From positions 1,116,001 to 1,180,000 of the forward strand of contig JAYJMM010000028.1 of assembly GCA_037349105.1 (NCBI GenBank): a DNA stretch of 64,000 nt. The letters are read 5' to 3'. The notes under the pieces are model-generated. The model had not been told where the DNA came from. It was given only the letters and a program-made list of their open reading frames with translations, and did no database searches. The translations under genes were made by a program, and so were the position numbers. This DNA is from Limnomonas spitsbergensis (taxonomy: Eukaryota; Chlorophyta; Chlorophyceae; Chlamydomonadales). Shown here one piece after another: positions 11,319 to 58,387 of the stretch; position 1 is the stretch's first letter; each line of letters begins with the position of its first letter.

Positions 11319-11319
11319 A

Positions 11320-14055: not shown

Positions 14056-14100
14056 TCTCCTTCTTCATTCCTGCGCCATGCGCACCACCTGGTCTGCATG

Positions 14101-22557: not shown

Positions 22558-22566
22558 AGTCTGGTG

Positions 22567-30227: not shown

Positions 30228-30299
30228 ATGGTGACGACAGTGCTCACTGTGCTCATGCTCATGTTCACGGTGCACATGCCCCTGGTGGCGCATGGCCAG
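30228..30299 (+). other. Signal peptide
   Basis: The first 24 or so residues have Met-Val-Thr-Thr followed by a Leu/Val/Met core (VLTVLMLMFTV) and a likely cleavage near A-H-G-Q. The mature protein begins with a Pro-rich segment. This places the N-terminal ectodomain outside the cell. Confidence 0.8.
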
Positions 30300-33200
30300 G
30301 GCCCTGCCCAGCCGCCTTACCTGCCGAACTGGCCCAGTCCTCCAAACCCTCCACTACCTAGCCCACCGCCATCACCGCCCCCATCGCCACCTCCATCCCC
30401 GCCTTCGTGAGTTTCGCCGGCTGCACTTTGTCCGATGTGTTGAAGGACTGCAGTTCATCAGGGATGTTGAATTGCTCAGGGCGGGAGATGGAGATCTGAT
30501 AGGGATGAATTAGGGTGTAAGGATTCATTGCTCTGTGTGGGGTGCAGAGGTGTGATGGGCAGGACATATCCGTAGGTTGCACGTCTGGTCCTCCGGCATG
30601 TCAAACTGCTTAGGGGCAGAGGTCTGATGGGGAGACAAAAGATGCTCAAGGCCAAGCTCAAGGCCTATGTTGTTCAAAGCAGGTAACACTGTACCCAGAT
30701 GGTATGCCCCTTGCATTCCTGATTGCTGGGATGCTTGCACTTGCTCCACAGTCCTTGAATCCCGCCACCATACCCCACTATTACAGGCCACCACCTGAGC
30801 CACCAAGCCCGAGCCCGCCTCCCCCGCCACGGCCTCCCAAGCCACCGAGCCCAAGCCCTCCGACACTACCTCCCAGTCCCCCGCAACCCCCTCCATCTCC
30901 TCCTCCCAAGCCTCCACGCCCATCCCCTGTGAGTTACCTGGCCACTAGCACTGGTAGCTTTCCCTTCGTGCAGCATGCGGCTAGGAATGAGGTGCATGAA
31001 ACTTTCAGGATCAGGGCAGGGTTAAGGATTTGAAGGTATATGCAGGAATTGAATTGAATCTCCATCCCATAGAAGAGGCTTGTAGTGGGCACTGTGCTGC
31101 GCTCACCGCGTCAGGCCAACTGTGGTCAAGGACGCTCCTGCAACCGTAATCAGAGTGATAGCCGTGTGTTGAATCTTTCAACATACCCCCAATTTTGCAT
31201 GCTGCATGCCCTACAACACTATGTGCGTCAGCAATACCTTGTACTCAAACTGACAAGCTGCATATTCTGCTGTCCTGTCATGCAGCCCCTACCACCGCCT
31301 TTTCCTCCGCCACCAAGCCCTCCAGTCCCCCCCTCTCCCCCCCCTCCCCCCTCCCCTCCTCCCCCCTCCCCCCCCCCTTCTCCTCCTCCACCAATTCCCC
31401 CCTCCCCTCCTCTCCCCCCTTTTCCCCCTCCCCCCTCCCCTCCCCCTTTTCCTCCGCCACCACACCCCCCATCCCCCTCCCCTCCCCCCTCTCCCCCTCC
31501 TCCCTCTCCCCCCCCGTCACCCCAACCACCACACCCCCCCTCCCCTTTTCCCCCTCCTAGTCCTGCACTCCCCTCACCACCACCATCCCCAGAACCCCCC
31601 CCCCCCCCTTCCCCCTCTCCCCCCCCTGGTCCTCCTCTCCCCTCACCACCACCATCACCGCCATCACCAAACCCTCCTTCCCCTCCCCCTCCACCCTCCC
31701 CCTCACCTCCAGAACCTCCCTCTCCCTCCCCTCCCCCTGATCCTCCACCACCGGAACCCCCCTTTCCCTCCCCCCCAGACCCCCCTTTCCCCTCCCCTCC
31801 CCCCTTACCCCCCCCTCCCTTTCCCCCCTCCCCCTCCCCCCCCCCCTCCCCTTCACCACCCTTGCCATCCCCTTCTCCACCACCTCCAGAGCCCCCCTCC
31901 CCCTCTCCTCCCCCCTCTCCTCCACCCCCCTCTCCTTCTCCTGCCCCCCCCTCCCCCTCCCCTCCCCCCTCTCCTTCTCCACCAGAACCCCCCTCCCCTT
32001 CCCCCCCCCCTTCTCCTCTACCACCAGAGCCCCCCTCCCCCTCTCCTCCCCCCTCTCCTCCACCCCCCTCTCCTTCTCCTGCCCCCCCCTCCCCCTCCCC
32101 ACCCCCCTCTCCTTCTCCACCAGAACCCCCCTCCCCTTCCCCACCCCCTTCTCCTCTACCGCCAGTGCCCCCCTCCCCCTCTCCTCCCCCCTCTCCTCCA
32201 CCCCCCTCTCCTTCTCCTGCCCCCCCCTCCCCTTCCCCACCCCCCTCTCCTTCTCCACCAGAACCCCCCTCCCCTTCCCCACCCCCTTCTCCTCTACCGC
32301 CAGTGCCCCCCTCCCCCTCTCCTCCCCCCTCTCCTCCACCCCCCTCTCCTTCTCCTGCCCCCCCCTCCCCCTCCCCTCCCCCCTCTCCTTCTCCACCAGA
32401 ACCCCCCTCCCCTTCCCCCCCCCCTTCTCCTCTACCGCCAGAGCCCCCCTCCCCCTCTCCTCCCCCCTCTCCTCCACCCCCCTCTCCTTCTCCTGCCCCC
32501 CCCTCCCCCTCCCCTCCCCCCTCTCCTTCTCCACCAGAACCCCCCTCCCCTTCCCCCCCCCCTTCTCCTCTACCGCCAGAGCCCCCCTCCCCCTCCCCTC
32601 CCCCTTCTCCTCTTCCGCCCTCCCCTTTTCCCTCCCCCCCCTCCCCCTCTCCCCCCCCCTCTCCTCTGCCACCAGACCCCCCCTCCCCTTACCCCCCCCC
32701 TTCTCCTCCTCCACCCGAACCCTCTCCCCCCTCCCCTCCCCCGTTTCCTCCTCCCCCGCCTTCTCCTCCTCCACCAGAACCTCCCTCCCCCTTCCCGCCC
32801 CCACCCCCGTCACCGCGACCACCAGATCCACCCTTGCCACTCCCGTCTCCACCCCCAAGTCCCCCTAAGCCCCCTCGCAATCCCTACCCACCGCGGCCTC
32901 CAAGCCCTCACCCTCCACCCAGCCCGAGTCCACCGCCAAGTCCATCACCCCCACCGAGTCCGTCACCCCCGTCACCTCCAGACCCTCCAAATCCGCCAAA
33001 CGGGCCACTGGTGAGGATCCTGCTGAGACAAAAGCATGTCCATCATCCATTTACTTTGGTTGTGAGGATTGTGGATTGACATCCAAAGATCCAGTCTTAC
33101 AATTTCAGCATCATGTTGTTGCTGTTCCTGTGATTTTCTTAGAAGTTGTGTCATGTTTCTGTCATGATATGAGATGCTGCATCAGATTCAGCATGTCCTT

Positions 33201-36200
33201 GCATAGATGTTTCGTGCACTTCATGAGTGCAGTGCGTAGCTCTGCATGTTGCTGAGCCTTCACATCCAGCAATTATGCATCGAAATTTTAATGCTCCATG
33301 CACTGTGTGCTTTGCTGTCTAAATTTGCACAAAAGCCTTCATATCATTTCTGGAGGGTTCCTGAGCGCATCTGGAAAAGTACCACGGACAGCAGCCAATG
33401 CTCTTCTCTACATGCTTACTTTTGCTCGCCCATGTGTTGCGCGCCACTGCCTTTGTTCCTGCACCTCTTGGCTGCGAGGCGCATCACCAGCGATCCGCCT
33501 TGTTCTGCGCGCCCCACTGTGTTGAGCACATTGCCTTCAATCAAATGCATCCGTGTGCCGTCTGGCCTGACTCTGTGGTGCATGATGCCCCCTTGCAGAC
33601 GCCCTACCCCCCCAACCCGCCTTCCCCGCCGAGGCCGCCGCCGCCACCAAGCCCTCCTGAATGGCCGGAGCGACCCCCGCCTCCGAGCCCGCCGCCGCCG
33701 CCGCCGTCCCCGTCGCCTCCCAGCCCCTCACCTCCTCCCAGACCGCCGCCACCAACTCCCCCCTTGCCGCCGGTGCCCCCCTCGCCACCGCCCCCCCCCG
33801 TCTATTCGGCAGGCGGCTCCCAGTATGCCTACCCTATCCTGCAGACTGTCAATGGGAACACATATGGCCTGATTAATGAAGGCATGACCTGGGACGTGGG
33901 GCGGACACAGTGCCAGCAGTATGGTGGTGATGTCGCCTGGTTCGGTACGGCCTTGGACTACCTGAACGTGATGGCAGCCTACGCCCCAGTGTTCACCTAC
34001 TACGACACCAACGACCTGACAGTGCGGCAGGTGACCTGCTTCTGCAGATCCTGCCGCCATTTGGCCGCTAGAGGGGATTGCGTTACGCGCAGCTCGAGTG
34101 TAACCTGAATTTCTGCAAGCTTGATCACTTTTATCCCCATGTCCTTGCATCTCTTCCACCCACTGTGTTCTTTCCCGCTGAAAGATCTTGCCTCCCCCTT
34201 CCCGCTTGGACCTAGGTATGGCTGGGTGGGACTGACTCAGACACCCCAGGCTGGTGGTACTGGGCGGCTACAAACGAGAGCCCAGACATCGAGGGGGAGT
34301 TCAACCTCTGGTCCCCTGACTCGACCAAGACAACTGTCGGCGCCTCTGGACTCAGCAAAAAGTGCCTTGCATCGGACGTTGGGTACAATGTGTCTAGCGG
34401 TGTGTGAAGGGGTTCTGATCAGGGAGCTGGTGGGGGCTGGACCGAGGCTAGGTTGAGCACATGAGCCCGTACCTTATGAGGAGTTTGGGAGGTCTAATGC
34501 AAAGTGTGGGATTTAATCAAAGGCTCAGGCTGAGGAATGTCAGGAATTTTTCCACAGAACTCATGTCTTGTCAAAAGGTACTGCGTACAGAAATCAAATT
34601 TTCTGCATCGCATGAAGATCATTGCTACACATGCAGGTCAGGGACATATTCTTAACTGGAGCATTGGAACCTCTATGACGATTTGAGCAGTCTTTGCTCC
34701 GCGTCCCTTCCCATTCCTCTTGGTCACCCTTGCATGCTGCCCTCCTGCAGGCAATGTGACCAGCGACGGTGCCTTGGTGGACCTGGATTGTTTGCGGAGC
34801 CACTGGGTGCTTTGCCGCTCCTTGACCGCGGGTTCGTTCTACGCGCCGCCGCCGTCACCCAGTCCGCCGTTGCCGCCGTCACCTCCTCCCTCTCCCTGGC
34901 CTTCCCCCCCTTCCCCTGATCCCCCCATGCCCTCCCCTCCCCCTTCATCCTCCCCCCCATCATTGCCCACGGCGCCCCCCGGCGGATGGCCACCAGATCC
35001 CCCCTCGCCCTGGCCTCCTGAGCCCAGTCCCCCGCTCCCTCCCTTGCCACCTGAGCCCAGTCCCCCGTTTCCACCTTCCCCGCCTCTGCCAGACCCTCCC
35101 TCCCCCTCTCCGCCGGTCCCACCCCTACCCCCTTCGCCCCCTATCCCGCCGCCCAACCCACCACCACCGATCACCCAAGTGGCCTCTGTGACGCAAGGCG
35201 ACTACACCTACACGCTGTACTTTACAGGCCTTGACTTCACCGCCGCAGAGGCTATATGTAGGACCTCTGGCGGGCACTTGGCCTCCTTCTCATCAAAGGT
35301 CGATTACGATGCCGTTACTGCCGCTGTTGCATCACACTTTACCGCCTCTTCAGAGTTTGGGCCCGTGTTGTGGATTGGTCTGGTGCAGGCCTCGCCCGGC
35401 GTCTGGGTCTGGATTGATGGCAGCCGCGTCACTTGGGTGGGCTTCGGCGAGGTGGACTTCTTCTCGCACAACAACTCGGTGGCACGGTCATGCGGCGCTG
35501 TATACTTTCAGCGGAACAGCGACTGGGTCAACACCGAGTGCACGGAGTTCTGGCCGTTCCTATGCAAAGACCTGGCCACCCTGCCGCCGCCATCGCCGCC
35601 TTCGTTTGGGACATTTGGGGTCGCGTACCCGCCTCCGCCTCCGCCGCCTGCATATGGCTCGGGCGCGGCACACCTACAGTACAGGTTCATCGTTGGGCAG
35701 TATGACTACCTGCTGGACCTGGACGTGCGCACGTACAGCGAGGCTGAGAGGTTCTGCTCCAGCAAGCTTCCAGGCAGCTTCCTGGCTTCGTTCCCAAGCT
35801 CATGGGACTTTGAGGAGGTGGCGGCACTGGTGCACGCATACCTCGCCACGGCGTCAGGTGCTCTCGCATCTTCCTCTCCACCTCCGGCCTCGTCGCAGGC
35901 GCCCGCCCCTCCAGCGAATGCCAATGCACCTCCCATTGGCAGCCTGCCATCATCCGCCTCAGCGGCCGCGTTCTGGCTTGGCTACTTTTACGACGGTACC
36001 ACCGGCTGGGCCTCAACGACTGCCACGTCATTCACATACTACCCCACGTCTGCATACGTGCAGCCCAACCCTACTCGTGCTTGCATTGCTTCAGAGCCAA
36101 GCGCAAGCTACGCTTGGTACCCGCACTTCTGCTTTGAGTCCTTGCCCTACTTGTGTCAGGCACCGCTGTCGACCTCGTCGCCTCCGCCAGGCCTCCCACC

Positions 36201-39200
36201 TCGGCCACCCGGAACAGCCCCACCGCCGTCCCCCGCATCGCCTGCGTCCACTGCCTTTGTTGAAGTGGACATGTACCGCTACGAGCTGTATGGCGCTTCC
36301 TCGCTGACCTGGCAGGCCGCGGACGATAGCTGCCAGTCTGTGGGCGGCTTCCTGGCCAGCTTCCACAGCGGCGGGGAGTATGAGGCTGCCATGGTTTTGG
36401 GCGGATTGCTGACAAGTCTGGGTAACCAGATGGCCTGGATTGGACTGCATGACCAGGTTGCGCAGGGCGTCTTCCGCTGGTCCGATCATGGCCCAGTGCA
36501 ATATACGCGCTGGGATGAGGCGTATGTGCAAGACACCAGCGGCCACAGCTGCACACTTGTAGACAGCGCCTGGGGCGGGACGTGGGCCGCCGCGGACTGC
36601 CTGGATACTAAGCCATACATCTGTAAGTTCCCTCTACAGGAGGGCACCGCGGTGCCGCCTTCGCCCCCCCCCGGAACAGCCACTTCGCCACCACCGCCGG
36701 GCTTCTACGAAGATACGCCTACCAACTACACGTACGCGGCGCAGTCATATTCATACGATGGCATTCACGAGTTTCTGCTGTTCGCCGAGACTGAGACGTG
36801 GGAGGACGCTGCTGACATATGCCTGCGCAACCAGGCAAACCTTGCCTTTTTTGACAGCCTCAACGAGTGGCAGGCAGTCTCGGCATACTTCACCGCGTTC
36901 GCCAATGCGACGCCGACTGCATCGCTGTGGGTGGGCCTGCAGGCGCTTGCCAGTGGCGGCGACAACTTCACCTGGAGCTCGGACCATGCCTCACCGACGT
37001 TTTCGGCATGGAACCCGCCCGGCTGCCCTGAAAGTGCTGTGCTGCAGCCTGACAATTGGGGCGGCGACCAGGCATGTGTGTCTGCATCCTTCCGGACGTG
37101 TGCCAGATGGGATGACCGCTCCTGTTTCTGGAAGATGCCCTTCTTGTGCAAGGCTAACCCCGCACCGCCTCCACCGCCACCCCCGCCCTACCCCCCTTCT
37201 CAGCCGCCTAAGCCCCCGCTCGCACCCAGCGATGCCAATGACTTCTACTCGTACAACCAAATTCCGCGGCCACCCATCGATCCTCCTCCTCCACATTCAC
37301 CCCCGCCCTACCCTCCTATGCCCCCACCTGTATCTCCCCCGCCCCCATTTCCAGACCCACCTTCCCCCCCCCCTCCACCCCCAAGCCCTGAGCCCCCCCC
37401 AGACTCAAATCCCCCTCCTCCCCCTCCTCCCCCACCCCCTCCCCCAACTTACTCTCCACCTCTGCCTCCGTCACCGTCACCATCCCCCCATTCTCCTCCC
37501 CCTCCACCCCCTCCACCTCCACCTCCTACCCCTGCTGCACCATACCCCCCCCCTCCCCCTCCCCCTCCTCCTCCTCCATACCCTGTCGCCCCTACTACCA
37601 CCTACCCTCCTCCTCCTCCCCCTCCACCACCTCCACCACCTCCGAGTAACCCAGCATCACCACCTCCTTTACCCTCCCCTCCCCCTCATCCCCCTCCTCC
37701 CCCCCCTCCTCCTCCTCCCCCACCCATTCCTGCTGCACCCTATCCTCCTCCTCCGCCGCCTCCCCCTCCGCCGCCAAATCAACCCCCTCTTCCTACTATT
37801 GTGCATCATTTCTACTCTCCTCCACCTCCTCCCCCCCCGCCGCCACCTCCGTTATACTCCCTACCATTGCCTCCATTATCCTCCCCTCCCCCTCACTCCC
37901 CTCCTCCCCCCCCCCCTCCCCCTCCTCCACCCACACCTGCCGCACCATACCCTCCTCCCCCTCCTCCCCCCCCCCCTCCACCAACACCCAGTGCACCTTC
38001 GGCCGGGTACCCTCCACCTCCACCACCTCCTCCCCCCCCGCCTCCATATACTTCGCCACCTCTGCCTCCGTCACCATTCCCCTCCCCCCATTCCCCTCCA
38101 CCTCCACCTCCTCCCCCTCCCCCTCCCACCCCTGCTGCACCATACCCCCCCCCTCCCCCTCCCCCTCCTCCTCCTCCATACCCTGCAAACCCTACTACCA
38201 CCTACCCTCCTCCTCCCCCCCCTCCCCCACCTCCACCGCCTCCAGATAACCCAACACTACCACCTCCATCACCCTCCCCTCCCCCTCATTCCCCTCCTCC
38301 CCCCCCTCCTCCCCCTCCACCACCCACTCCTGCTGCACCCTATCCTCCTCCCCCTCCGCCTCCCCCCCCCCCGCCAAATCAACCGCCCCTTCCCACCACT
38401 GTGCATCATTTCTACCCCCCTCCTCCCCCTCCCCCCCCTCCGCCTCCTACACTATACTCCCCACCATTGCCTCCATCACCCTCCCCTCCCCCTCACTCCC
38501 CTCCACCACCCCCTCCTCCCCCTCCACCACCCACACCTGCGGCACCATACCCTCCTCCCCCTCCTCCCCCCCCCCCTCCACCAACACCCAGTGCACCTTC
38601 GGCCGGGTACCCTCCACCTCCTCCTCCTCCTCCCCCCCCGCCTCCATATAATTCTCCACCTCTGCCTCCATCACCGTCACCCTCCCCCCATTCCCCTCCC
38701 CCTCCACCTCCTCCACCTCCACCTCCCACCCCTGCTGCACCATACCCCCCCCCTCCCCCTCCCCCTCCTCCCCCTCCATTCCCTGTCATGCCTTCTACTG
38801 CCTACCCCCCTCCGCCCCCCCCTCCCCCACCTCCACCGCCTCCAGATAGCCCAGCATCACCACCTCCTTCACCCTCCCCTCCCCCTCATTCCCCTCCTCC
38901 CCCCCCTCCTCCCCCTCCACCACCCACTCCTGCTACACCCTATCCACCTCCTCCTCCGCCTCCCCCTCCGCCGCCAAGTAAACCCCCTCTTCCAACTATT
39001 GTGCATCATTTCTACCCACCTCCTCCTCCTCCCCCCCCGCCACCACCTCCGGTATACTCCCCACCATTGCCTCCTTCACCGTTCCCTCCCCCTCACTCCC
39101 CTCCACCACCCCCTCCTCCCCCTCCACCACCCACACCTGTTGCACCATACCCTCCTCCCCCTCCTCCCCCCCCCCCTCCACCAGCACCCAGTGCACCTTC

Positions 39201-42200
39201 GGCCGGGTACCCTCCACCTCCACCTCCTCCTCCCCCCCCGCCTCCATATAATTCTCCACCTCTGCCTTCATCACCGTCACCCTCCCCCCATTCCCCTCCC
39301 CCTCCACCTCCTCCACCTCCACCTCCCACCCCTGCTGCACCATACCCCCCCCCTCCCCCTCCCCCTCCTCCCCCTCCATTCCCTGCCATCCCTTCTACTG
39401 CCTACCCCCCTCCGCCCCCCCCTCCCCCACCTCCACCGCCTCCAGATAGCCCAGCATCACCACCTCCTTCACCCTCCCCTCCCCCTCATTTCCCTCCTCC
39501 CCCCCCTCCTCCTCCTCCACCACCCACTCCTGCTACACCCTATCCACCTCCTCCTCCGCCTCCCCCCCCCCCGCCAAATCAACCCCCTCTTCCAACTATT
39601 GTGCATCATTTCTACCCCCCTCCTCCTCCTCCCCCCCCGCCACCACCTCCAGTATACTCCCCACCATTGCCTCCTTCACCGTTCCCTCCCCCTCACTCCC
39701 CTCCACCACCCCCTCCTCCCCCTCCACCACCCACACCTGCGGCACCATACCCTCCTCCCCCTCCTCCCCCCCCCCCTCCACCAACACCCAGTGCACCTTC
39801 GGCCGGGTACCCTCCACCTCCACCTCCTCCTCCCCCCCCGCCTCCATATAATTCTCCACCTCTGCCTCCATCACCGTCACCCTCCCCCCATTCCCCTCCC
39901 CCTCCACCTCCTCCACCTCCACCTCCCACCCCTGCTGCACCATACCCCCCCCCTCCCCCTCCCCCTCCTCCCCCTCCATTCCCTGCCATCCCTTCTACTG
40001 CCTACCCCCCTCCGCCCCCCCCTCCCCCACCTCCACCGCCTCCAGATAGCCCAGCATCACCACCTCCTTCACCCTCCCCTCCCCCTCATTCCCCTCCTCC
40101 CCCCCCTCCTCCTCCTCCACCACCCACTCCTGCTGCACCCTATCCACCTCCTCCTCCGCCTCCCCCCCCCCCGCCAAATCAACCCCCTCTTCCAACTATT
40201 GTGCATCATTTCTACCCACCTCCTCCTCCTCCCCCCCCGCCACCACCTCCAGTATACTCCCCACCATTGCCTCCTTCACCCTCCCCTCCCCCTCACTCCC
40301 CTCCACCACCCCCTCCTCCCCCTCCACCACCCACACCTGTTGCACCATACCCTCCTCCCCCTCCTCCCCCCCCCCCTCCACCAGCACCCAGTGCACCTTC
40401 GGCCGGGTACCCTCCACCTCCTCCTCCTCCTCCCCCCCCGCCTCCATATAAATCTCCACCTCTGCCTCCATCACCGTCACCCTCCCCCCATTCCCCTCCC
40501 CCTCCACCTCCTCCACCTCCACCTCCCACCCCTGCTGCACCATACCCCCCCCCTCCCCCTCCACCTCCTCCCCCTCCATTCCCTGCCATCCCTTCTACTG
40601 CCTACCCCCCTCCGCCCCCCCCTCCCCCCCCTCCACCGCCTCCGGATACTTCACCACTGCCTCCTTCACCATCCCCTCCCCCTCATTCTCCTCCTCCCCC
40701 CCCTCCTCCCCCTCCACCACCCACTCCTGCTGCACCCTATCCTCCGCCTCCACCGCCTCCCCCTCCGCCGCCAAATCAACCCCCTCTTCCAACTATTGTG
40801 CATCATTTCTACCCACCTCCTCCTCCTCCCCCCCCCCCTCCACCTCCTCCAGATTTCTTGCCACCACTGCCTCCGTCTCCGTTCCCTCCACCTAATTCCC
40901 CTCCCCCTCCACCTCCCCCCCCCCCGCCGCCCACACCCGCCGCACCATACCCCCCTCCCCCCCCCCCCCCTCCTCCTCCTCCTAGTGTTCAACCTGAGGG
41001 CCCATCTGCCCCTCCCCCTCCTCCTCCTCCCCCACCACCTCCTCATCCTCCTCTCCCACCTCCTCCCTCACCCTCACCCCCCCATTCTCCTCCCCCACCA
41101 CCTCCACCACCTCCACCGCCAGCTCCTGCACTACTAGACCCTCCCCCTCCCCCCCCCCCTCCACCACCACCTACCCCAGGTCATCCTGATCCTGCGGCTC
41201 CTCCTCCTCCTCCTCCTCCCCCTCCCCCTCCTCCCCCTCATTACTCTCCCCCACCTCCCCCCTCACGGCCTCCTTTCACCCCCCCTCCCCCTCCTCCACC
41301 CCCTCCCCCACCTACACCAGCTGCTCCCTATCCTCCTCCCCCGCCTCCACCGCCTCCACCCCCCACTGCACCATCTCCCCCACAAGTAGACTCATCAAAT
41401 GCCCCAGCTGCTCCTCCCCCCCCGCCTCCCCCCCCTCCACCTCCCCCACAGCCCCCACCTTTCTACTCCCCTCCCCCTCCCCCTCCTGCCCCCCCTCCCC
41501 CCCCCCCCCCTCCTCCCCCTCCACCTCCCACGCCTGCAGCACCTCACCCTCCTCCCCCTCCGCCTCCCCCGCCTCCTCCCTCAGTTCCCCCGACTTCTCC
41601 TAGATTCCCTCCTCCTCCTCCCCCCCCCTCCTCCTCCCCCTCCCTCACCCCTCTCTCCCTCACCCCCTCCTGTTGCCCCATACCTCCCCCCCCCCACCTC
41701 CTCCTCCACCCCCCCCACCTGAACCGCATGCTCCGCAGACTCCTCCTTTGCCTCCTCCGCCTCCTCCGCCTCCCCCACCTCCCCCTCCAGAGGCCCCCCC
41801 TCTTCCTTTACCGCCTCCACCTTGGGTACCCCCTGTGCCCCCTCCCCCCCCTCCCCCGCCTCCAAGCCCTCCTCCCCCTCCCCCCCCCAGACCCCCCTCC
41901 TCCTCCCCCTGAGCTGCCTCCCCCGCCTCCCCCTCCCCCCCCCGCCTCCCCCGCCCGACTTCCCTCCCCACGAGGCCCCAGCTGCACCGATGTCTCCGCC
42001 CGCAACCAACATCACGACGTTGCTTGTCGATGGCACCCTGACGCTGGAGCAAGCCACAGCGGCGGCAGTGGCGGCGGCAGTCAAGACCAGCATTATTCCA
42101 CAGGTGGTGGTCAGCACTCTGAACAACCGCCCGGCTCTGAACACCCCGATCACGATATACACGCCCGTGCCCGTTGTTGTGTCCTCGCTGCTTGTCACGA

Positions 42201-48200: not shown

Positions 48201-51200
48201 GTGCATCATCTCGCACACCATGGCTTTGGGACCTGGGCTGAGGTATCATGGCGCAAGCAGCAGGGAGGAATGTGGTGTTCGGCTGCGCACATGTGTCACA
48301 TGGGCGGCAAACCAGCCGCAGCAGTCACCTCTCAACTCCAAAACTCCCCTGGCCAGACATTAGCCGCGTGGGGGCAGGGCATCGGGGATGATGAGCAAGG
48401 TCACGTCGAGCTGTCCTCCGCCTCTGCTGCTGTTTGTCGTCACGTCTCTTGCCCTTGCTCGCAACTGTTTCCCCCCACCTTCCCTGCCCACTCCCTTGCC
48501 TCTGCTAGGTACACAGCTACCAGCCTCAGTGGCATCCGCACGGCTGCTCTGTGCATGAACTTTGTCGTCGAGAACTACAGTCGGGTCAACATGACGGTCT
48601 ACTCCGGTTCAGGCCTGACTGAAGACATGGCCAACGTGGCAGCAGAGAGGGTTGCAGCCAACACCTCATTAATGGACAGTCTCGTATACAATGCTGTGCA
48701 GGTGGGGGTGGAACGGCTATGTTTTTCTGGCAGGTTAGCCAGGGTGATAAGTCAAACCAGTGCTGACCACTAAGTGATAGGACGGGTTGCCTTCTTAATC
48801 CATTTACATGAATAGTTGGCACAGGTGCACTGTAAACTCCAATTTGTTCCAGAACCACATGCGCGCCAGTGGCAATATCAGTAGTGTGAACTTATGTGCA
48901 GTATGCCCCCCCCGCTCCCTGGCCGATTTGCTCACAACTAGCTATGCCCTGCCTTGTCCGTGTGTGCAGAACATGACCCCGCCCATCAACCCATCCTCCG
49001 TGCGCGCGCTGCTGGTCCTGTCCGTCTCAGCAGTCTCAGCGGGCAATGCCTCCAACTGGACCGTTCGAGTGGACGTAGAGATCACGGTTGGCTCTGTGTT
49101 CAACCTTACCAGCCTGGTGGCTGCAAGCGGGCTAAGGCGCGGCCGTGCGCTCGCATCAGCCACCTCGGTAGCTCTCTCGCAGTGGGCCATGCAGGACGTG
49201 CACCTGCGGCCCGCAGCAAGTGCCTCAGCATCCATGCCGTTTCTTGCGACGGGCGGGATGGAAACGGCGGACACGCTGCTCGACTTAAAGTCTGGCGCAG
49301 GCGGGTTTGGCCATGAACCTGCTGCTGCCTCTGCACAGAGGCAGCTGAAGGCTGTGCTATCAGGTCATACGCGCCGCATGCTGTCAGCGTGGATCCACGA
49401 ACAGGCAGTGCCAGCGCTGGAGCGGGCAAGGCGGGCCGCCGCCGAGTCGCTGCAGGCGCTGGAGGACCTTGACGAGGGCTTATACAATGGCTCCCACGGC
49501 GGCGGCAGGTCGCTACTCGCCTCGGCACCCAACGCGTCCAGCATTCTCCTGGCGCAGATCTTTTCCGTGCTTTCAAACCTAGAGACGTTGGAAGTGGGTT
49601 CCTGCAGCCTACTCTCTGCTCTGTCAAGCCCACCATAGACATGCAGTATTGCAGTGGCATAGCACCCATGGAGGTGCTCTGATCATGAACATGGGCGTGT
49701 GCCTTGCAATTGTATCAAACCCATGCCTTTTGTCTCCAGTATTTTCCGTGTGTCCTCTGAGGGAAGAGGGCCAAGCCTGCCGGGGTTTCAGAGTGTGCGC
49801 AATTGCCAGTCCCTGAACCGCACCTCCTGGATCGCAGCATTGTCATGCATGGGGCTGCCCAACCCCGCTAGCCTATTATGTATCACATTCACATACACCA
49901 TCACGACATGTCAACATCCCCCCCCTCTGTGTGTTCCTGCCCTAACTGCAGTCCGACATCCAGGTCTCCATCCAGTCCATGAACACCACGGTTTCTCTCA
50001 CCAGCAACACCTTTGACATGACGGACATTGGCTACCAGAGCGAAATAACGGGCTTCAGCACCGCGCTCCAGTCCAGCTATGAGAGCCTGACTAGCACTGT
50101 GCTGTTGATGCCCCAGAAGCTGCTGACCATGGTAATTGCTAGATAGGGTCGGAGCAAGTGTGGGCGGGGCACTCATGCGCTGCATGTGCAGAGAACTAGA
50201 GCTGCATATCAAGGGAGGGGATGCAGAGATCGGGCAGTATCATAAGGGATGAGTAAGGCTGTTGTATATGGCCTCCTCTGGCTGCAGCCGCACGCAAGTG
50301 TATGAACTGCCAGGCGCTTCCCTGCCTATGTTATGTCCAGGGTCCTTGGGCAGGCCTCTGGCGCCCCCTAGGATACAATCATCACTGATGATGGCAGCGC
50401 CCTGGCTATCTACCCCTTTTAGATCATAGGTCGTTTGACTGACCGCCCCAATCGCGATCCTGACAGCTCGTAAGCCCTGTGTGTCGCCACCTTCACGCCC
50501 ACCTCCCTCCTTCTTCCCTGTCCTGCAGCCCAGGACCTCCATTCAGGCAGCTACCGCTGCTGCTGCAGCCTCGCTGGTGACCTCGTACACCAAGCTGGTT
50601 TCAGAGCTGGTGTCCAACGTGGCCATCGACACCACCTCCGTGCTTTCTGCCAACACGAGTGCTTCCTCGGCTGCGTACAGCACCTACCTGGCCTGCTTAC
50701 TGCAGCGCGCCAGTGGTGCCCGCGCCAGCTTTTCACTGCGGCACTTCACGCCGCCCTCGCAGGACTATGTAGCGTCCATGCTTGAGCAACGCAAGCAGCA
50801 GTCGGGCGGGCTCAGCATGGGCAGCACTAGGCGCAGGCGGCTTGATGCAGATGCCGGCCTGCAGAGTGAGGATGCTGAAGCTGCTGGGTCTAGTTTGACA
50901 GCCGCTGCCCAGCGCCGCGCGCTTTCTGCTGTAAATGAGTCTGATGTGGACTGGCAGGGCGAGGTGTTGGCGGGCTATTCCCACAGCTACCCGGTGTACT
51001 CGGTATACAACAGGAACCGCCAGGGCTGGAGTCTGCCACGCAATTTTGATGCGGTTCTGGCGTCTAATCGAGTGGTCGGGCAACGCAACAACCTGCTGTT
51101 GGGCGGAATTCACATGCACCAGACCCGGCACAAGATCTCAGAGGCGGTGGTCACGGAGGGAAATCTAGCAAGCGCGTGCTCTTCGCACTACGCAATGCTG

Positions 51201-54200
51201 AGCACAGAATGCATCCCAGGGGCCAGCCTGACACACTTCAACTTTGTTCAAGGAGGAAGAGTTGGGCGGGATCCAGTTTTCTACAACCGCTCCACTCTGT
51301 TCGACCCACTGCTTGCAAGTAAGGAGGTCTGCAATGGCCCTGAAACCTTTGCATGGTGGGCTGTCCTAGTGTTGTGTAGCCAAATGATGTATGGTACCAG
51401 CCCTTGCTTCTCTGAAAGAAATAAGCACTCTGTATGGCGGCTGCTCCTCCTGATTCATAGGCCTCCTGACTGACCTCCTCTGCCTTGACCCGCCCCTGCC
51501 CCACCCTCCTCCTGACCTCCCTTCCTCTGCCCTCCCCCTCCCCCTCCCTGATACTCGCAGCCTCCCCTGACCTGTACTACGATACAAAGAAGTGCCTTTC
51601 GGGTCTTGCCTCATGCGGCGAAACAGATCCTTACGGCCAGCCGTTTGGCTTCCAGCCCATGAGCCTGCCAGGCCTGACAGAAGGGTACTCGATCGTCATC
51701 GACAACCACGTGCCGAAAGCACGCATGCAGGACATGGTGAATATGGGGGGAGGAGGAAGGGGCAGAGAGGCGTTTGTAGACGCAGGTAGGAGATGCTATG
51801 TATGGGTGCGGCTTTTGAGGGTGGATATTCAGGCTGCTTCGGTACTTGAACGATCCTCCGTGCAACTTGAGCAACCGGCCTCGGAAAGGAAGAGAGAGAG
51901 AGAGAGTTGACAAATTAGACGGTGGGACTCACCGTAATCACCATGCATGTCATAGTCCTCCCCTGCTTTCTATCAGAGTATGCTCTACCCTCGTACTCCT
52001 ACTCCTCTCTCGTCATTTCATAGCTGCTTTGCCATGCTCCTGGTTAAGTACCCTGTGCCCCCCTCCTTGCTTTAGATGCGCTACCTTTGGGATGGAGAGT
52101 ATCTGGACCGGGTGCTCACCTCTTCGCTCACACTGCGTGCTGCGACTTACAATCCCAACTCTAAGACGTTTGGCTTTGCCAAGATGATCTTCAGGTACTA
52201 TTGTACGAGCTCACTTCCGCTGTATTGGATTGGCCTTGACCGCTGTTACCCATCCTTGATTGATAACAAGTGCAATACGTGGCCAGTGTGAGGGAAGTGG
52301 GGTGTCCACCCGACCGGAAAACATGCTGGATGTTTGCTGTGCCTCTTTTCTCAACACAAACACCATGATTTAAGAGGCGATTTAAGTTGTGGTGACACCC
52401 AAGTTTGCCTGCCAGGGATGTGCACCTCGCTTTCCTGCTCGTAAACCCACACCTGTCTTTCCTGACTGGCTATGTGCAGTTGGTCCGGCAACGGCTTCAT
52501 CACATTCAGCCTGTCGGCCATGGGCCTGCCTGCCATCGACTACTCGGCCTACATACAGAACCGCGAGTACCGAAAGTTTGTCCCTGACTGGTTTGTGGTG
52601 GTTCTGGCCTTGATCTACGTGATGCTCACTGTACTGGACCTCTCCCAGTCAGCCATCAGCCAGTCCAAGATAGCAGACGAATCCCCCGTGGCCATCCAGC
52701 TTACTGCAGGTGAGAGGCCTCCTCCGCGACCTCCTCCTCCGCGACCTCCTCCTCTCGACATGCGTTGATATGTGTGGGATGCTCCTGGTGCCTGTCCTCT
52801 CCTGACTGCCCACCCTATTGCCCGCCCTGCGTCTTCACAGAGGAGGTCTATGAACGCAAGCTGAAGGCCAAGAATGAGTTCCGCCCACGTGTGAGCGCCT
52901 TCTGGGTGATTTATGAGGTGTTCATATGCGCGCTGATGGCGGTTGCCATCGCCCTACAGTTCTACTACATCTTTGACCTCTCGCCCAATGCGCCGGTGCA
53001 GAACCGATGGGATGTGTATGATGCAGGTAATGCAGGGAGTGGGGGGCGGGTGGAGGAACTGATTGAATGCAGGGTTTACAGGATTCTCTCTGTGGGCTGT
53101 GCAGGGGGGGAGGAGAGAAATGGTGCATTTTTTCTGGGGATCCTATTTTTTTTTTTGATAGTGATACCGGTATACTGGTAAGAGGCGCAATACAGTAATG
53201 GCACGTTTCTGTGTCCATTCGTTAAGGGTCTGGTAACAATCTTGAGTTGGTTGAGCATGTATGTTGCCCTGCCCCCCATGATGTCATTTGCACTTGGCTG
53301 TCTTTCCTGGACCCCCGTTTTGCCCATAAGATCCCCGCCTCCCCCCACCCACCCCCCTCCTTCCAGACGTCGCGTCTCCCGCTCACTTCTTCATGCTCAA
53401 GAAGGACTCCACTGCCTTCACCACCAGCCAGTTCTCGCAGTTGCTCGGCAGCTCCCTCCTCAGCGGAAACAAGAGCAATGCTGCAGCCACTGCCGCCGCC
53501 ACCATGTCGACTGGCGTACCTGCCCCAGGCGAGCCCTATCGATGGGCGCTGCCAGACGTGCCCGCTGGCATGCAGGGCATGGCGGGCCTGTACAGCGCGA
53601 TGGAGAAAATGACCAATGTGTACACAGGCTACTGCCTGGTGCAGGGTCTGATCCTGCTGCTGCTCATGTTTCGCCTGATCAATTACGTATCGTTCCAGCC
53701 GCGACTAGCAGTGGTGTCAGGCACGTTGTCGCGGATGATCCCCGACCTGCTGCACTTTGTGGCTGTGTTCATCATCATCGCGTGCATGATCGCCATGGTC
53801 CTGACTGTGGTGTTCGGGTACCGCGTGGGGTCAGTTTCGACGTACTCTGACGCACTGCAGCTGTTGGTGAAGTACGTCATCATCAAGAAGGGCAAAGCGA
53901 ATGTGGGGGGCATCGGCGTATCGGTGAGTGGGGTCCAGCCCAGACAGTTTATATGCACATCCAGATCCGGTACCAGTACCTAAGTTAATGCTTCTTGCCA
54001 TGCCCTGTGATCCTGTGTGGAAAGCTCGCCTGCGTCTGGGACGTTGAGGTGTGCGGGTTTGGGGACCCGCCAGCTGTCTCTCTTAAGCAGGGAGGCAAAT
54101 GTGCTGACGAGCCTCCCCTAGTCTTTTGGATGGTTTTCATATTTACTCGTATGCAACCGCACCTGGCTTCAGAATCAGGACACTTCACCAGGGATGTGTG

Positions 54201-57200
54201 TTTGACTCCCTCACGGCCCCTCGGAACTTCATATGGGAGACAGCTACAGCCAATCTGATATTTTGTTTTAGTGGTATACCGGCATTCGATTGCATAAGTG
54301 TTCCTGCTCCCATGATCTCATCCCTGCCCATGTAGCTGACCGCTCTCCTGGCCGCCCCCCGCCTCACTGCTCCCCCACCAGACGCTGCTGCCAGCGGGCG
54401 TAGACATCCTGCCCATTGAGCAAGCCGTGGGCTACCTCATCTTTGTGGGCGTGCCCATCTTGTTCACCTACCTGGTCCTCAACTACTTTGTAGCCCAGGT
54501 AATGAGCTTTCATCGGGGCATAGAGAGATCCGGTCGTGCTCACCTGGGGTTCAGCGGCTCAGGAGGTTCACGTGTTCAGTCAAGATGCAGTGCTTGGGGG
54601 CTCGGAGCTAAATTGAGTGCTTATACCCACTTGCACCCTCCTTCCCGGCACCTGCGTCCTCCTGCAGATAATTTACCCATTCGTGTGGATCAAGCATAAT
54701 TACCGCGACAAGCCGCACGTGTGGACTGAGATGTTCTGGCTGGCCCAGGCAAGGTGGCAGGCCCTGCGTGGACAGGCATCAAGCAACGGCAAGCTGGACC
54801 GCCTTGTGGACTGGCTACTGATGCCCAAGATCGGCAACAACTGGTGGTACAACACCATCTACCGGGCAGTGATCCGCACCACTGCCAAGAGGAGCGCGGG
54901 GCTGGCTGTCGGCAGGACGTCCCAAGGCAAAGAGATGGTAAGGGCGACTACTGTCTAGCTTTTCATTGCACCCCTGATTCATGCTGGTAACCGCCTTGAT
55001 GTACCCAGGGCATGGGATTCAGCTTTTCAGTAGGTCTTGTCGAAAGCATTTGACTATGTTTGCTTGATCGGCTGAAGCCCCCCTGGTCTTTCTGATCACC
55101 CCTGTTGCCCAGACCATCGAGCTGAGTGAGGACGATGGCTTAGCCCGCTTCAATTTCAAGCGGCTGGCCAATGAGCTAGACGCCCTCTTCATAGAGGCGC
55201 CTGAAGCTGAGGGTCAGGCTGCGCTGCTGCTGCGCGGAGGGCCCAGGTCATCGAGCTCCATTCGCATTGCAAAGTGGAAGCGGCTGCAGCATGTGCTGTC
55301 AGTGGCCGGGCCTGCCTACGCTGGCACCACCGAGGTCACCGCTATCACCTCGCTCAAGAGCCTGGAGGCTCGAGGGTCGGGCAGCAGCCTGGCAGCCAGG
55401 GACTCAGGTGGCAGCAGCGGGGCCAGAGGCTTGGGCAGGAGCCCTCAGGTTAGCGACTCCTACGGCTCCATGCCACTCACGCCCATCAAGGGCGGCATGG
55501 ACATGCCCTTCGGCGCAGCCAAGGTTGGCCGCGCAGGAGCAGCTGGACATCCCATCAAGCGCCGCCCATGCAAGATCGAGGGCGCAAGCGAGCACAGTGG
55601 CGATGTGGCAGGGCGGCTGTCGCGGCTGCTGATTGAGCGCTTTGGCATCGAGATGCCCAAAGTGCAGGTGCGCAACTTCGACCAGCTCATGACGGAGGTC
55701 CGCCGCCAGCTGCGCTCCAGCGGATCGAGCGGCTCGCGCACGGGAATGGGCGCCTACCCCTTAGCTTACAGACTCTACCCCTACCCTTACCCTCAACAGC
55801 AGGGAGAGCAGGGTGCCATGCCTGCCTCCGGCCAGCTGTTTGCCTGTGGGAACAATTCCATCCAGCAGCAGCCGCAAGACCTCTTGCTCCAGCACCAGGT
55901 CCGCAAGGCATTTGCGAAGATCGGTGGGCAGATCCAGGCGGCAGTGGGTGCCGACGGCGCAGAGAACGACCCTGAACTGATCTCAACCTTGTTTGCCGGC
56001 ATGCTGGCAGCAGCGCTACCGCAGCCGGCATCAGAACTCCACGGCAACGACCCTGACATGGCACTCGCCTATGCGCTGTATGCAGCAGTCAATGGTGCAC
56101 CGCGGGGCACCCAGTCCCCGATGCAGCGCGCCTTCTTCCCGGGTGCTGAGCTGCCAAGCAACCTTAGCGCATTACCATCCAGCCGCTCAGGGCGCCGGCC
56201 GGCCCCGCTGTCCGGTGGCCAGGCCTCCTCTGGGGTGGAGCCCATGTACATACGCTCTGGCAAGGCCAATGCACAACTGGACTTAATGGCTAGGGAGCTG
56301 ATGGCTGCCGCAACTGGAGACCCAATGCCCCAAGAGCTCCTTGAGAGCTTCACTCAAGAAGACTTGAGGGAGAGCTCCCCCCTGCAGGAGCAGGACTTCG
56401 CCGGTTTCTCAGAGATTTCAGCTGAAGATGACCAGGAGTCCTGTGAGGGGGAGGCTGTGAGACAGGTGGGCTCCAACTCTGGCACGCTGGGGCCCCAAGA
56501 TGCCTGGAGGCGCATTGAGGGTGGCCCCACAACGTCCACTGGCAAGGAGGGGCGACTGGCGCACAGTCGGCACCAGACTTCGGCCCAGTTGGCAGCTGCC
56601 GTGACCGCACTTGCTCAGCAGCTGACCAGCCGCGCCTTGCACCTCTCCCGAGAGCTCAAGGTAAGTTTTTGTAGCCGACTGCAAGGCGTACGTGGATGTG
56701 TAGACAGAGCTGCGAGCGCTGACTGTGTTGCAAATCTCGTTTCATAAAAAAAGCAATAGATTGTTTGTCTGTCAGGTCACCTGCAGCCCCCATGCTCCGT
56801 AAATTCTCATTTTTTCTCCGCCTTCGCACCACTCGCAGGTTGTCCAGAACGATGTGGACCACATGCTGAGGTCCACGCAAGTGGTGCTGGACGCAATCCT
56901 CTCACGTCGCTTTGTGCCGGCTGCGCTGGCCAGGCGTCAGCGCCTGAACGAACCGCTGCCCGGCATACCCACACAGCCCTCTGATGAGCTGAGGAAGGAC
57001 AGCTGGCCAGCCATCCAGAGCTTCACGCCCCGCTCCTCCTCCAGGTACCGCGGGCGCACCTCCTGGCAAGAAACACTGCCTGAATTGCATGTCTTGCAAG
57101 GCCATGCATCCCGACCTGCTTGGACATAGCTACCCATAACTTGCAAGCTGCCTCCCTTATCCTGATATGATGTGTCCATGTGGTGTTGGGCACAGACTCA

Positions 57201-58387
57201 TCCTGGAGGAGGACACAGCGCACCGTGCAGTGGGCATCACGAGAGATCCAGCGCGAAGCCCTGCGGATGAGCGGCCTTTGGAGGCGGTCCAGGACACTGA
57301 GACGTGCAGGGAGGAGCAGGTTGAGGTGGACTACGAGAAGCTGGCCCATGAAGCCGAGGACCAGCACATGCAGGACATTGAGGACGATGCCGCGGAGATA
57401 TCCACGCGTATGCAGCTTGAGGGCAGCCTGACCAACTACCTGGACACTATCAAGCAGCGCCAGGCCGGCCGGTCGTTCATGGCCATGGACATGGGCTTCA
57501 ATGCCGCGCTCGACGCGATGGAGCGAGACCTTGAAATGTCACCGCCCACACCGATCGGAAAGCGCGAACTCGACCATGCGATGGGCAAGATGGTGCTTGG
57601 AGGTCCTGCGTCAAGCAGCATGCCGATAACATCTATAGAACATGAGCTTTCAAGCGGCAGCCCTGGTACAACAACGAATGGTATTGCAAGGACCCTAGAC
57701 CACTTGCCCCTCCTGGCCACTGAAGCGCCGCTTGACGATGAGAAGGGTACAAAATTGCGATGTTTGAGCAACAGCCCGGCGGCGGATGCAGGGGATGATG
57801 GAGCCAAAAAGGCAGGCCCAAGTTGTGAGGCCCTGGCCTCCCAGGCCGCAGACAGGGTTGTGCCCAAGAAGCTCAAGAAGCTCAAGAAGAAACATCTGGC
57901 TGAGCGGAAGGAGCCTGAGATCCCCCCCCTTGCTTCGGTCAAGGTTGATCATGCGGAGGCCGCTGTCGAGGTTGTGTCCGCCAGTCCCCTCTTGCCGGAC
58001 GCAACCTTAGCTTGGGGTACAAATGGGCCCATCGAGGAGAAAGCAGAGCATGCTCATGCACCCGTGAAAGGCAAGTCACTGGGGTTGAAGAAAATGAAGA
58101 AGATGGCTGGTGTGGACGCTGTTGCCCGGGCTGAGGCCGGGCCCAGCACATGGGCCGCAAGCGCAGACTCAGCCGCCCTTGTGGCTCCAGATGTGAAGAA
58201 GAAGAAGAAGAAGAACAAGGCCAAGACTGGTGGCGGGAACTTGGCCAGAGAGATTGCAACTGCAGCACAGCCGCTCCGCAATGAGGCGGGGGAAGGGCTG
58301 CCCAGGCAGACTTTTACTGCACCCTCCTCTATTCGCCCGGCTATTGACGTCAACGCCGAGGCTGTGCCTGACAGGGGTTCGAATTAG
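30228..58387 (+). CDS. Giant hydroxyproline-rich polycystin-like channel protein (mastigoneme MST3-like candidate), about 6,550 aa
   Basis: Exons (all GT-AG, phases agree): 30228-30406, 30787-30928, 31286-33010, 33599-34030, 34216-34399, 34751-42997, 43144-43315, 43627-43762, 43893-44317, 44485-44622, 44803-45014, 45190-45327, 45556-45663, 45997-46197, 46420-46764, 47262-47546, 47906-48111, 48509-48701, 48970-49593, 49952-50131, 50529-51318, 51561-51736, 52076-52194, 52480-52709, 52841-53026, 53367-53923, 54382-54498, 54668-54937, 55113-56660, 56839-57044, 57196-58387. Exon 6 needs four +1 slips in C runs. Layout: signal peptide; Ser-Pro stalk (to about residue 750); five C-type lectin-like domains; poly-Pro stalk; an unassigned globular part; Ig/HYR-like modules (about 3,690-4,360); polycystin extracellular domain; five membrane segments; cytosolic tail from about residue 5,500. 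The start was chosen for its signal peptide. Known: Chlamydomonas MST3 is a hydroxyproline-rich mastigoneme protein with a PKD2-like transmembrane domain. Inference: this is its counterpart or a paralogue. Alternative: a polycystin-1-like receptor of the cell surface or mating structures. Confidence 0.85.
31890..32595 (+). repeat. 138-bp (46-aa) tandem repeat in the Ser-Pro stalk, about 5 copies
   Basis: The marker CTCTCCTCCC recurs at 31903, 32041, 32179, 32317 and 32455, exactly 138 bp apart. Each unit contains SPAPPSPSPPP and PPEPPSPSPPP type segments, regularly broken by Glu, Ala or Leu. Ser-Pro/Pro-Pro repeats of this kind are substrates for prolyl hydroxylation and O-glycosylation in algal HRGPs. 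Confidence 0.95.
33815..34843 (+). other. C-type lectin-like domain 1 (split over exons 4-6)
   Basis: Strands read YAYPILQTVNG..YGLI..GMTWDVGRTQC (33820-33920), WLGGTDSD (34219-34242), then a Cys and the terminal DLDCLRSHWVLC block (about 34789-34824), matching the C-x(n)-C end of the fold. No EPN/QPD or WND motif is visible, so calcium-dependent sugar binding is not predicted. Confidence 0.75.
35190..37155 (+). other. C-type lectin-like domains 2-5 (single exon)
   Basis: Four domains lie at about 35195-35566, 35683-36158, 36265-36627 and 36764-37152, each separated by short Pro-rich linkers. Each shows an early Cys after an A-(A/E)-x-x-C helix, a WIGL/WLGY/WVGL strand and a terminal W-x3-C-x5-(F/Y)-(L/I)-C block (domain 3 lacks the exact Trp spacing). 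Domain 5 alone has QPDNW (37045-37059) and a WDD (37108-37116), the positions of the calcium/galactose-type site of C-type lectins. Domain 3 has a Ser/Ala/Pro-rich insertion (about 35865-35965). Confidence 0.85.
37168..41990 (+). repeat. Poly-Pro stalk with a 600-bp (200-aa) higher-order tandem repeat
   Basis: The anchor GTGCATCATT (coding VHHF) occurs at 37801, 38401, 39001, 39601, 40201 and 40798: four exact 600-bp steps and one of 597. Each 200-aa unit is three related subunits of about 66-67 aa. A subunit consists of a run of 11-13 Pro, a SPPLPPSPSP.PHSP linker, 11 Pro, TPAAPY and 11 Pro, with variable caps (PSAPSAGY, PAIPSTAY, LPTIVHHFY). The tract continues with degenerate units to 41990. 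It should form a long rod of polyproline II helix. The reverse strand is extremely G-rich. Confidence 0.95.
41610..41943 (+). other. Four +1 frame slips in C homopolymers of exon 6
   Basis: The sensible reading changes frame at C runs 41610-41618 (9 C), 41686-41695 (10 C), 41880-41888 (9 C) and 41935-41943 (9 C). Each is corrected by removing one C. After four corrections exon 6 enters the globular segment in frame and ends in phase 0 at 42997, agreeing with exon 7. Either assembly overcalls or true mutations. Confidence 0.7.
42000..42997 (+). other. Unassigned ectodomain segment after the stalk
   Basis: About 330 residues follow the last poly-Pro block. A Thr/Val/Ala-rich part (TTLLVDGTLTLEQATAAAV... 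to about 42330) looks like a folded alpha/beta domain of the kind seen after stalks in algal HRGPs. Then come a short Pro-rich break and a Ser/Leu-rich, less ordered segment. No named domain recognised. Confidence 0.5.
43627..48701 (+). other. Ig/HYR-like extracellular modules
   Basis: Repeated signatures such as D-I-V-P-P-V-L followed by Y-S-D-L-G-A-T-A-S-D-S-L-D-G (43645-43755), D-S-V-A-P-V-I (about 44190) and HPPTINLLGG (about 44950) are typical of DUF5011/HYR-like beta-sandwich modules. Between them are Cys-rich stretches (exons 11, 14, 15, 17) with Tyr/Asn-rich strands. Many N-x-S/T sites are present. Compared with animal polycystin-1, these modules take the position of the PKD/Ig-like repeats. 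Confidence 0.6.
50529..52590 (+). other. Polycystin extracellular (TOP) domain
   Basis: Exons 21-24 show NLLLGGIHMHQTR (about 51087-51125), a Cys-containing loop, PYGQPFGFQPMS (exon 22), GYSIVIDN, and the YLWDGEYLDRVLTSSLTLRA - YNPNSKTFG - FITFSLS series (exons 23-24). The order matches the PKD2 extracellular domain. It ends at RKFVPDW, directly before the first membrane segment. No hydrophobic S1 helix precedes it. Confidence 0.8.
52590..54700 (+). other. PKD2-like channel membrane domain (S2-S6)
   Basis: Hydrophobic segments: FVVVLALIYVMLTVL (exon 24), FWVIYEVFICALMAVAIAL (exon 25), LVQGLILLLLMF and LLHFVAVFIIIACMIAMVLTV (exon 26), and VGYLIFVGVPILFTYLVL (exon 27). These correspond to S2, S3, S4, S5 and S6. 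The pore loop lies between S5 and S6 (YSDALQLLVKYVIIKKGK) and lacks a recognisable L-G-D filter. Five spans with an extracellular N-terminus put the C-terminus in the cytosol. Confidence 0.8.
54700..58387 (+). other. Long cytosolic tail with Lys-rich clusters
   Basis: After S6 come a Trp/aromatic-rich segment (exon 28), a large Ser/Gly/Gln-rich region (exon 29), a short helical part (exon 30) and exon 31. Exon 31 has an acidic helix (about 57310-57400), then three Lys clusters: KKLKKLKKK (about 57866), LKKMKKM (about 58084) and KKKKKKNKAK (about 58195). They could bind acidic lipids, tubulin or IFT/BBSome adaptors. That is inference. Confidence 0.7.

Follow-up and report, generated by a model that had tools for sequence, protein, structure and literature searches.

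Can one gene encode both the shaft of an algal mastigoneme and its membrane anchor? The question is raised by a 64,000-nucleotide stretch of the genome of the green alga Limnomonas spitsbergensis (contig C28, positions 1116001-1180000; hereafter the window, to which all positions without a contig name refer). Between 30228 and 58387 its coding sequence runs from a signal peptide through proline-rich stalks and lectin-like domains to a polycystin-type channel. The first-pass annotation had read this as a single gene for the counterpart, or a lectin-bearing paralogue, of Chlamydomonas MST3. From the gene order, domain content, repeat pattern and collinear MST3 homology observed here, together with the lack of a predicted helix S1, we consider it very probable that the gene encodes the MST3-type mastigoneme axial protein of this alga, shaft and membrane anchor in one molecule. 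Proteins of the MST3 kind are already known; what is new is a relative with 21 repeats, a QPD/WDD site in the fifth lectin domain that is shared with Chlamydomonas, and a set of paralogues with immunoglobulin (Ig)-like modules, TOP domain and channel. Genome-wide searches covered 260 Mb in 124 contigs.

A single gene of 31 exons

The gene lies on the plus strand and consists of 31 exons separated by GT-AG introns; it starts with an ATG at 30228, followed by a hydrophobic signal segment, and ends with the stop codon at 58385-58387. An automatic model, built by dynamic programming from a small codon table, had 38 exons and translated into 4473 letters, poly-proline having been taken as introns. 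We replaced it by exons set by hand from stop-to-stop frames, the sequence and that first model, with phases and splice sites checked. The six upstream exons yield 3177 residues, stop-free up to 41620. The 26 downstream coding pieces (exon 6 from 41990 onwards, and exons 7-31) yield 3253 residues with matching phases, no internal stop and one terminal stop. Counting about 120 residues between 41620 and 41990, the chain totals about 6,550 residues, and the figures of the first-pass annotation (31 exons, about 6,550 residues) were borne out. Along the chain, the signal peptide is followed by a Pro/Ser stalk, five C-type lectin-like domains (CTLDs), poly-proline repeats, Ig-like modules, the TOP/channel region and a cytosolic tail.

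Collinear homology to MST3

MST3 of C. reinhardtii (Cre06.g309951) is represented in the PDB by chain X of 9b4h, named 'C-type lectin domain-containing protein', whose 8572 residues equal the length of MST3 given in PMC11015965 (cited throughout from its accessible passages). Three separate parts of the window gene matched this chain. The lectin part (query 208-838) matched residues 675-1309 (E=6.8e-81), the next best matches being mannose-receptor-type lectins; the Ig part matched residues 4363-4889 (E=2.3e-86), the only match at E up to 1; and the spliced TOP and channel region matched residues 6297-6941 (E=9.1e-104), closer by far than polycystin-2, which came next (E=0.0018). The three matches are in collinear order. 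For MST3, PMC11015965 describes a signal peptide, a poly-proline N-terminus, five lectin domains, 42 repeats and a PKD-like domain without S1, that is, the same parts. The gene is thus supported as the counterpart of MST3, and a lectin-bearing paralogue need not be invoked, since MST3 itself has five lectins.

The two proteins are alike in the order of their parts, a poly-proline period of about 66 residues, helices S2-S6 without S1, a long cytosolic tail and the QPD/WDD site of CTLD5. They differ in length (about 6,550 residues here versus 8,572), in repeat number (21 versus 42), in the N-terminal stalk (726 versus 429 residues), in the repeat core (P11-TPAAPY-P11 with P12-13 here, not a strict P13-Yn-P11-(XXP)3) and in the tail (981 residues here, without detectable match, versus about 1,600). 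We found no description of MST3 in another species in the literature, in a search that covered few subscription journals. Mstax, a name of the axial protein, does not occur in the 15 papers checked for it.

Two further relatives share part of this arrangement. P0010 (hypothetical protein FOA52_015057 of Chlamydomonas sp. UWO 241, 2795 residues) has Ig-like modules, TOP, S2-S6 and tail in the same order; it aligned with 23 of the 26 downstream pieces, tail included, at 27-63% identity, and the three missed pieces precede its start. It is 44-45% identical in the channel (44.2%, 281/636, over the TOP/channel region) and 27-45% in the tail; its model differs in that it begins inside the Ig region and has no lectins and no poly-proline blocks of at least 9. 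P0003 (EukProt gene6161-2774_t, 2512 residues) joins lectins (35% identical, with a QPD/WND site in CTLD5), Ig, TOP and S2-S3 in one chain; it differs in that its model has a single poly-proline block of at least 9 and ends after S3. The channel exon is also 59% identical to two short contig proteins, P0001 and P0002. The homologue search with a 4041-residue query gave one match among 1716 scored candidates. That with the lectin part gave seven among 8000, six of which are animal mannose-receptor-type or unnamed lectin proteins.

More distant systems share single parts with the window gene. Polycystin-2/PKD2 channels share the channel core (PF08016) and a TOP-type region; they differ from the window gene, which has no predicted S1 and an ectodomain of thousands of residues, and their best PDB match to its spliced region is the E=0.0018 given above. 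In animal polycystin-1, a C-type lectin domain and Ig-type repeats also occur together with a channel-like end, and the likeness of C-type mannose receptors is confined to the lectin fold; to our knowledge, neither polycystin-1 nor these receptors have a hydroxyproline-rich glycoprotein (HRGP) stalk.

The proline-rich stalk and the repeat array

Exon 1 (30228-30406) encodes the signal peptide (MVTTVLTVLMLMFTVHMPLVAHG), judged from hydropathy alone and the sole hydrophobic segment above threshold in the upstream half, and the start of the proline-rich N-terminus. The stalk continues through exon 2 (30787-30928; phases fit, acceptor TTACAG, donor GTGAGT) and exon 3 (31286-33010; 575 codons, with 138-nt tandem repeats, TRF period 138) and ends in exon 4 (33599-34030). 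The N-terminal proline-rich segment comprises 726 residues (25-750), 67% of which are proline; serine accounts for 140 of the 241 other residues. Its interruptions are mostly of a single residue (221 of 231) and otherwise of two (10 of 231), making it slightly looser than the stalk of Chlamydomonas MST3, for which no interruption longer than one residue is described (PMC11015965).

The second stalk lies in exon 6 (34751-42997), which holds the end of CTLD1, CTLD2-5, the poly-proline array and the start of the post-repeat domain. The array (37411-41620) is built of 21 modules (P11-13, linker, P11, xPxxPx, P11) with a mean spacing of 66.7 residues and contains 63 poly-proline blocks (43 P11, 11 P12 and 9 P13). 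Three modules make a super-repeat of 200 residues, and four adjacent pairs of super-repeats are 90-98% identical in DNA; 78 of the 129 differences between neighbours fall at third codon positions, which indicates coding constraint. The block sizes (P11, P12, P13) agree with those of the Chlamydomonas repeats, the period is close (the Chlamydomonas value of about 66 residues being a rough estimate from phmmer coordinates) and the short linker is different.

Frame changes at the end of the array

The first-pass annotation had called the 31-exon model phase-consistent, and here it failed: the proline-rich frame shifts four times between 41.62 and 41.99 kb. A single frame was the proline-richest in all 29 sixty-base segments of 31286-33010 and frame 0 in all 73 segments of 37240-41600. 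Exon 6 stays in frame 0 to about 41620 and the downstream exons require frame 1; in the proline-rich stretch between (41621-41989) the proline-richest frame runs 0-1-2-0-1, frame 2 being that of segments starting at 41660-41840. The four changes fall within about 320 bases, at C-runs at 41620, 41686, 41880 and 41935 with lengths of C9-C10; many C-runs of equal length in the repeat array show no frame change. A DNA search with the channel exon found a single copy in the assembly, and hence no second allele by which the frame could be settled. We considered whether an intron spans 41.6-42.0 kb: the frame is restored by 11 GT-AG pairs, whose donors are GTAGAC, GTTCCC, GTTGCC, GTACCC or GTGCCC. 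Because none of these is a good donor, we hold an intron to be less likely and regard errors of base count in the C-runs as the most likely cause.

Two other readings of this break may be weighed here. If the frame changes were real, the locus could be a decaying copy that no longer makes a full-length product, and four apparent changes in about 320 bases would fit this. All four, however, fall at runs of 9-10 C, the remaining 19 kb or so of coding sequence reads stop-free, the super-repeats are biased to third-position changes and the channel exon finds only this copy, so that we judge decay very improbable. The break also falls between the two halves of the gene, as would be expected if neighbouring genes encoded a lectin/HRGP wall protein (30.2-42 kb) and, separately, an Ig-polycystin (42-58.4 kb); P0010, which starts inside the Ig region without lectins, and the existence of paralogues without detected lectins point the same way. 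Against this, lectins, Ig and TOP follow one another in the same order within a single chain both in MST3 (8572 residues) and in P0003, a gene model made independently, and the frame changes occur at C-runs within an otherwise unbroken proline-rich reading. With P0003 joining the lectins to S2-S3 and P0010 joining Ig, TOP, channel and tail, the single gene claimed at first pass was upheld, and we judge a pair of genes very improbable.

The lectin domains

CTLD1 is split over exon 4 (first half, joined by phase and splice sites), exon 5 (34216-34399; its middle, set by hand from phase and splice sites) and exon 6 (its end). CTLD2 (35170-35565), CTLD3 (35668-36156), CTLD4 (36247-36624) and CTLD5 (36736-37149) follow within exon 6. 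Pfam PF00059 matched CTLD2, CTLD4 (E=2.5e-14 in the genome-wide search) and CTLD5. For these three, and for an arrangement collinear with 9b4h_X, the proposed count of five lectin-like domains stood well; it is weaker for spliced CTLD1, whose PF00059 match (E=0.0016) is below the curated cut-off, and for CTLD3, assigned from its position, four cysteines and alignment to P0003 and within residues 675-1309 of 9b4h_X. The two halves of CTLD3 are separated by a Pro-, Ala- and Ser-rich insert, and P0003 has a proline-rich insert at the same place.

A QPD string is the mark of galactose-type C-type lectins. Among the five domains, only CTLD5 pairs such a string (QPDNWGGDQACV) with a WND-like motif (WDDRSC); in CTLD3, a QPN string occurs and no WND-like motif. 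CTLD5 of Chlamydomonas reads QPDNWGGDQRCV with WDDRAC, and that of P0003 reads QPDNFGGQQCV with WNDDFC, so that QPDNWGGDQ.CV and WDDR.C are identical in the window gene and Chlamydomonas. This motif pair marks a putative sugar site, and our guess is that CTLD5 could bind galactose of mastigoneme glycans. The retention of the QPD site in CTLD5 of three algae points to a sugar-binding role that the accessible passages of the MST3 paper (PMC11015965) do not assign.

In the genome-wide six-frame search, PF00059 matched at four places, three in the window gene and one on the minus strand at C123:6537939-6538274; the search missed CTLD1 and CTLD3 of the window gene and may have overlooked further lectin domains that are weak or split.

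Ig-like modules, predicted split channel and tail

Exons 7-20 (43144-50131) encode the Ig-like modules and a cysteine-containing ectodomain. Exons 7-13 lie at 43144-43315, 43627-43762, 43893-44317, 44485-44622, 44803-45014, 45190-45327 and 45556-45663, and exons 14-20 at 45997-46197, 46420-46764, 47262-47546, 47906-48111, 48509-48701, 48970-49593 and 49952-50131. The Ig-like modules were confirmed by PF16403, which matched the spliced region in two stretches (E=1.9e-17), by the match to 9b4h_X and by the alignment to P0010. The TOP (polycystin) region and helix S2 are encoded by exons 21-24 (50529-51318, 51561-51736, 52076-52194 and 52480-52709); S3, S4, S5, the pore region, S6 and the membrane-proximal cytosolic part by exons 25-28 (52841-53026, 53367-53923, 54382-54498 and 54668-54937). 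The PKD channel was likewise borne out (PF08016, E=1.3e-7 on the spliced pieces). The TOP domain held up in part, by alignment to MST3 (9b4h_X) and not by a Pfam model. Exons 29-31 (55113-56660, 56839-57044 and 57196-58387) encode the cytosolic tail of 981 residues, which has a lysine-rich end before the stop and aligned with P0010 at 32, 45 and 27% identity, respectively. GAIN and PLAT domains gave no match in the scanned pieces of the window, in P0003 or in P0010. An AlphaFold model of the P0010 TOP/channel fragment from four sequences had a mean pLDDT of 36 and was unusable.

Hydropathy revealed five hydrophobic helices with peaks of at least 2.0, which fit S2-S6; immediately before the TOP region it gave nothing resembling S1. 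The other segments above threshold in the downstream half (residues 53-78 and 398-420) are weaker (1.70 and 1.79) and far from TOP. With S1 absent by hydropathy, the chain is not a complete polycystin-2-type subunit, which would carry S1, TOP and S2-S6 together. MST3 also lacks S1, for which SIP has been proposed as the supplier, and two helices are missing from its TOP domain (PMC11015965, Dai et al. 2024). SIP is a single-pass protein of 361 residues that resembles the N-terminal part of PKD2 (PMC10846610, Das et al. 2024, in its accessible passages). As far as hydropathy can show, this split-channel feature is common to the window gene and MST3; shared by channels that are about 30% identical, it points to an old origin of the split MST3-SIP polycystin among green algae.

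Paralogues of the channel and the assignment to MST3

PF08016 matched at two places genome-wide, the window gene and C109:490260, and the latter, with the best PF08016 score, is by its sequence a PKD2 candidate. Of the 68 matches to a fragment of P0010, 7 fell in the window gene and 54 within a tandem array on C38 or at its edge; the other 7 were single exons on C37, C38, C42, C53, C108, C109 and C113. Eight other loci matched TOP/channel exons, some by one exon only. We read stretches of 20-40 kb around the seven single-exon loci and C109:490260. Exons of this family lie at C37:49000-68999, C38:3672400-3702399, C108:359500-367000, C109:111200-131199 and C109:475500-495400, and on C53 and C113. 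The Ig region also matched at C37, C38 (3.67-3.70 Mb), C42 and C108, there over 29 residues only. The window lectins had no match in these stretches at E up to 1e-3, and C42 alone among them has a proline-rich stretch above threshold (more than 500 residues, in a Pro/Ser/Phe/Leu pattern).

On the minus strand, C42:1587300-1617299 holds Ig-like, TOP and channel exons with the Pro/Ser stalk of more than 500 residues upstream, with no P6 in the first 500 residues read; the stretch read does not reach the 5' end of the C42 gene. This locus is possibly a second stalked polycystin. MST3 could belong to a family in green algae whose half-polycystins have giant ectodomains; this is a tentative idea, which we would not favour at present. 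If it were true, the alga might make hairs of two sorts, both tethered by channels: the window gene would give mastigonemes with an MST1 coat, and C42 uncoated fibres of poly-hydroxyproline.

The array on C38 (458176-465524) is a satellite with 57.4 copies of a 128-bp unit, 97% matching, the unit consisting of a piece of a TOP exon and the apparent end of the preceding intron. Nearly all matches of the P0010 fragment in it carry TAA in the matched frame.

Several results weigh against the assignment of the window gene to the MST3 kind. Identity to MST3 over TOP and channel is only 30.4% (193/635), and the channel exon alone, searched against the PDB, found polycystin-2 best (7.6e-5) with MST3 not listed at E up to 1, a result that we take as that of a misleading short query, the spliced region giving MST3 as described. 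No Pfam model of a TOP or polycystin domain matched the piece of the window, P0003 or P0010 at E up to 0.1. Nothing in the PDB matched the tail at E up to 1, not even the MST3 chain of 8572 residues. CTLD3 has no PF00059 match, and the frame of exon 6 is not continuous at 41620-41990, leaving about 120 residues uncertain. The published strict motif P13-Yn-P11-(XXP)3 has no match by regular expression, P11 being followed here by TPAAPY and another P11. Finally, in matched columns, which were chosen by match to the paralogue and so favour it, the paralogue is closer to MST3 than the window gene at six of eight loci, by 1 to 16 residues, with one tie and one loss. The identities of paralogue and window gene are 114/107 for C37, 73/57 for C38, 61/55 for C42, 67/66 and 65/59 for C109, 11/10 for C113, 52 each for C53 and 47/48 for C108.

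These comparisons, the eight loci and a tree of channel fragments in which window gene and MST3 are not joined (supports of 31-50 at the nodes that place them) would fit a stalked polycystin paralogue with a role other than that of the mastigoneme axis. Such a protein would serve another surface structure, at the cell-body membrane or in gamete adhesion, the true MST3 being elsewhere or lost. Yet more than one lectin domain was detected in the window gene alone, in a search that missed two of its five, and so was an array of P11-P13 blocks, in the stretches read. Lectin, Ig and channel parts jointly fit MST3, and summed bits against the MST3 channel are highest for the window gene (356, versus 240 for C37, 217 for C38 and 157 for C42). 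In the tree, C37, C38 and C42 are separated from window gene and MST3 by the one split that has a support of 100. At each of the eight loci, P0010 is more like the window gene than like the paralogue. We consider such a paralogue improbable. Channel sequence by itself does not prove orthology to MST3, and the assignment of the window gene to the MST3 kind therefore rests on its whole architecture.

A model for the mastigoneme axis

By analogy to MST3, we infer glycosylation, coating, partners, ciliary location and length as follows. The N-terminus would be secreted, and its prolines hydroxylated and glycosylated. The 726-residue Pro/Ser segment may form a thin distal tip, of about 225 nm at 0.31 nm per residue. 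The 21 repeats may form a rod coated by MST1-like subunits, the number of repeats setting the length of the shaft. At the 19 nm per repeat of the 42-repeat Chlamydomonas shaft (PMC11015965), the shaft would measure about 400 nm; this length and that of the tip are extrapolated from published scaling. The differences in repeats (21 versus 42) and tip (726 versus 429 residues) offer a natural test of the idea that repeat number acts as a ruler.

The five C-type lectin domains would lie between tip and shaft, and CTLD5, the only one to keep a QPD-type site, may bind galactosyl glycans of the coat. At the proximal end, the Ig-like modules would lead to the TOP domain and helices S2-S6. A SIP-like partner would be needed to supply the missing S1 and complete the fold, and together with PKD2 the unit would form a channel to which the hair is tethered. 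On the cytosolic side, the tail may attach to the axoneme.

Other features of the window

Upstream of the gene, the minus strand of 11148-23031 carries retroelement frames, with reverse transcriptase and RNase H at 14104-15210 and a zinc knuckle at 22570-23031; an integrase match at 11151-12176, also on the minus strand, was below the cut-off. Two near-identical segments (497-1458 and 23588-24630) at a distance of about 23.1 kb flank most of these frames; both contain the same 54/108-bp tandem repeat.

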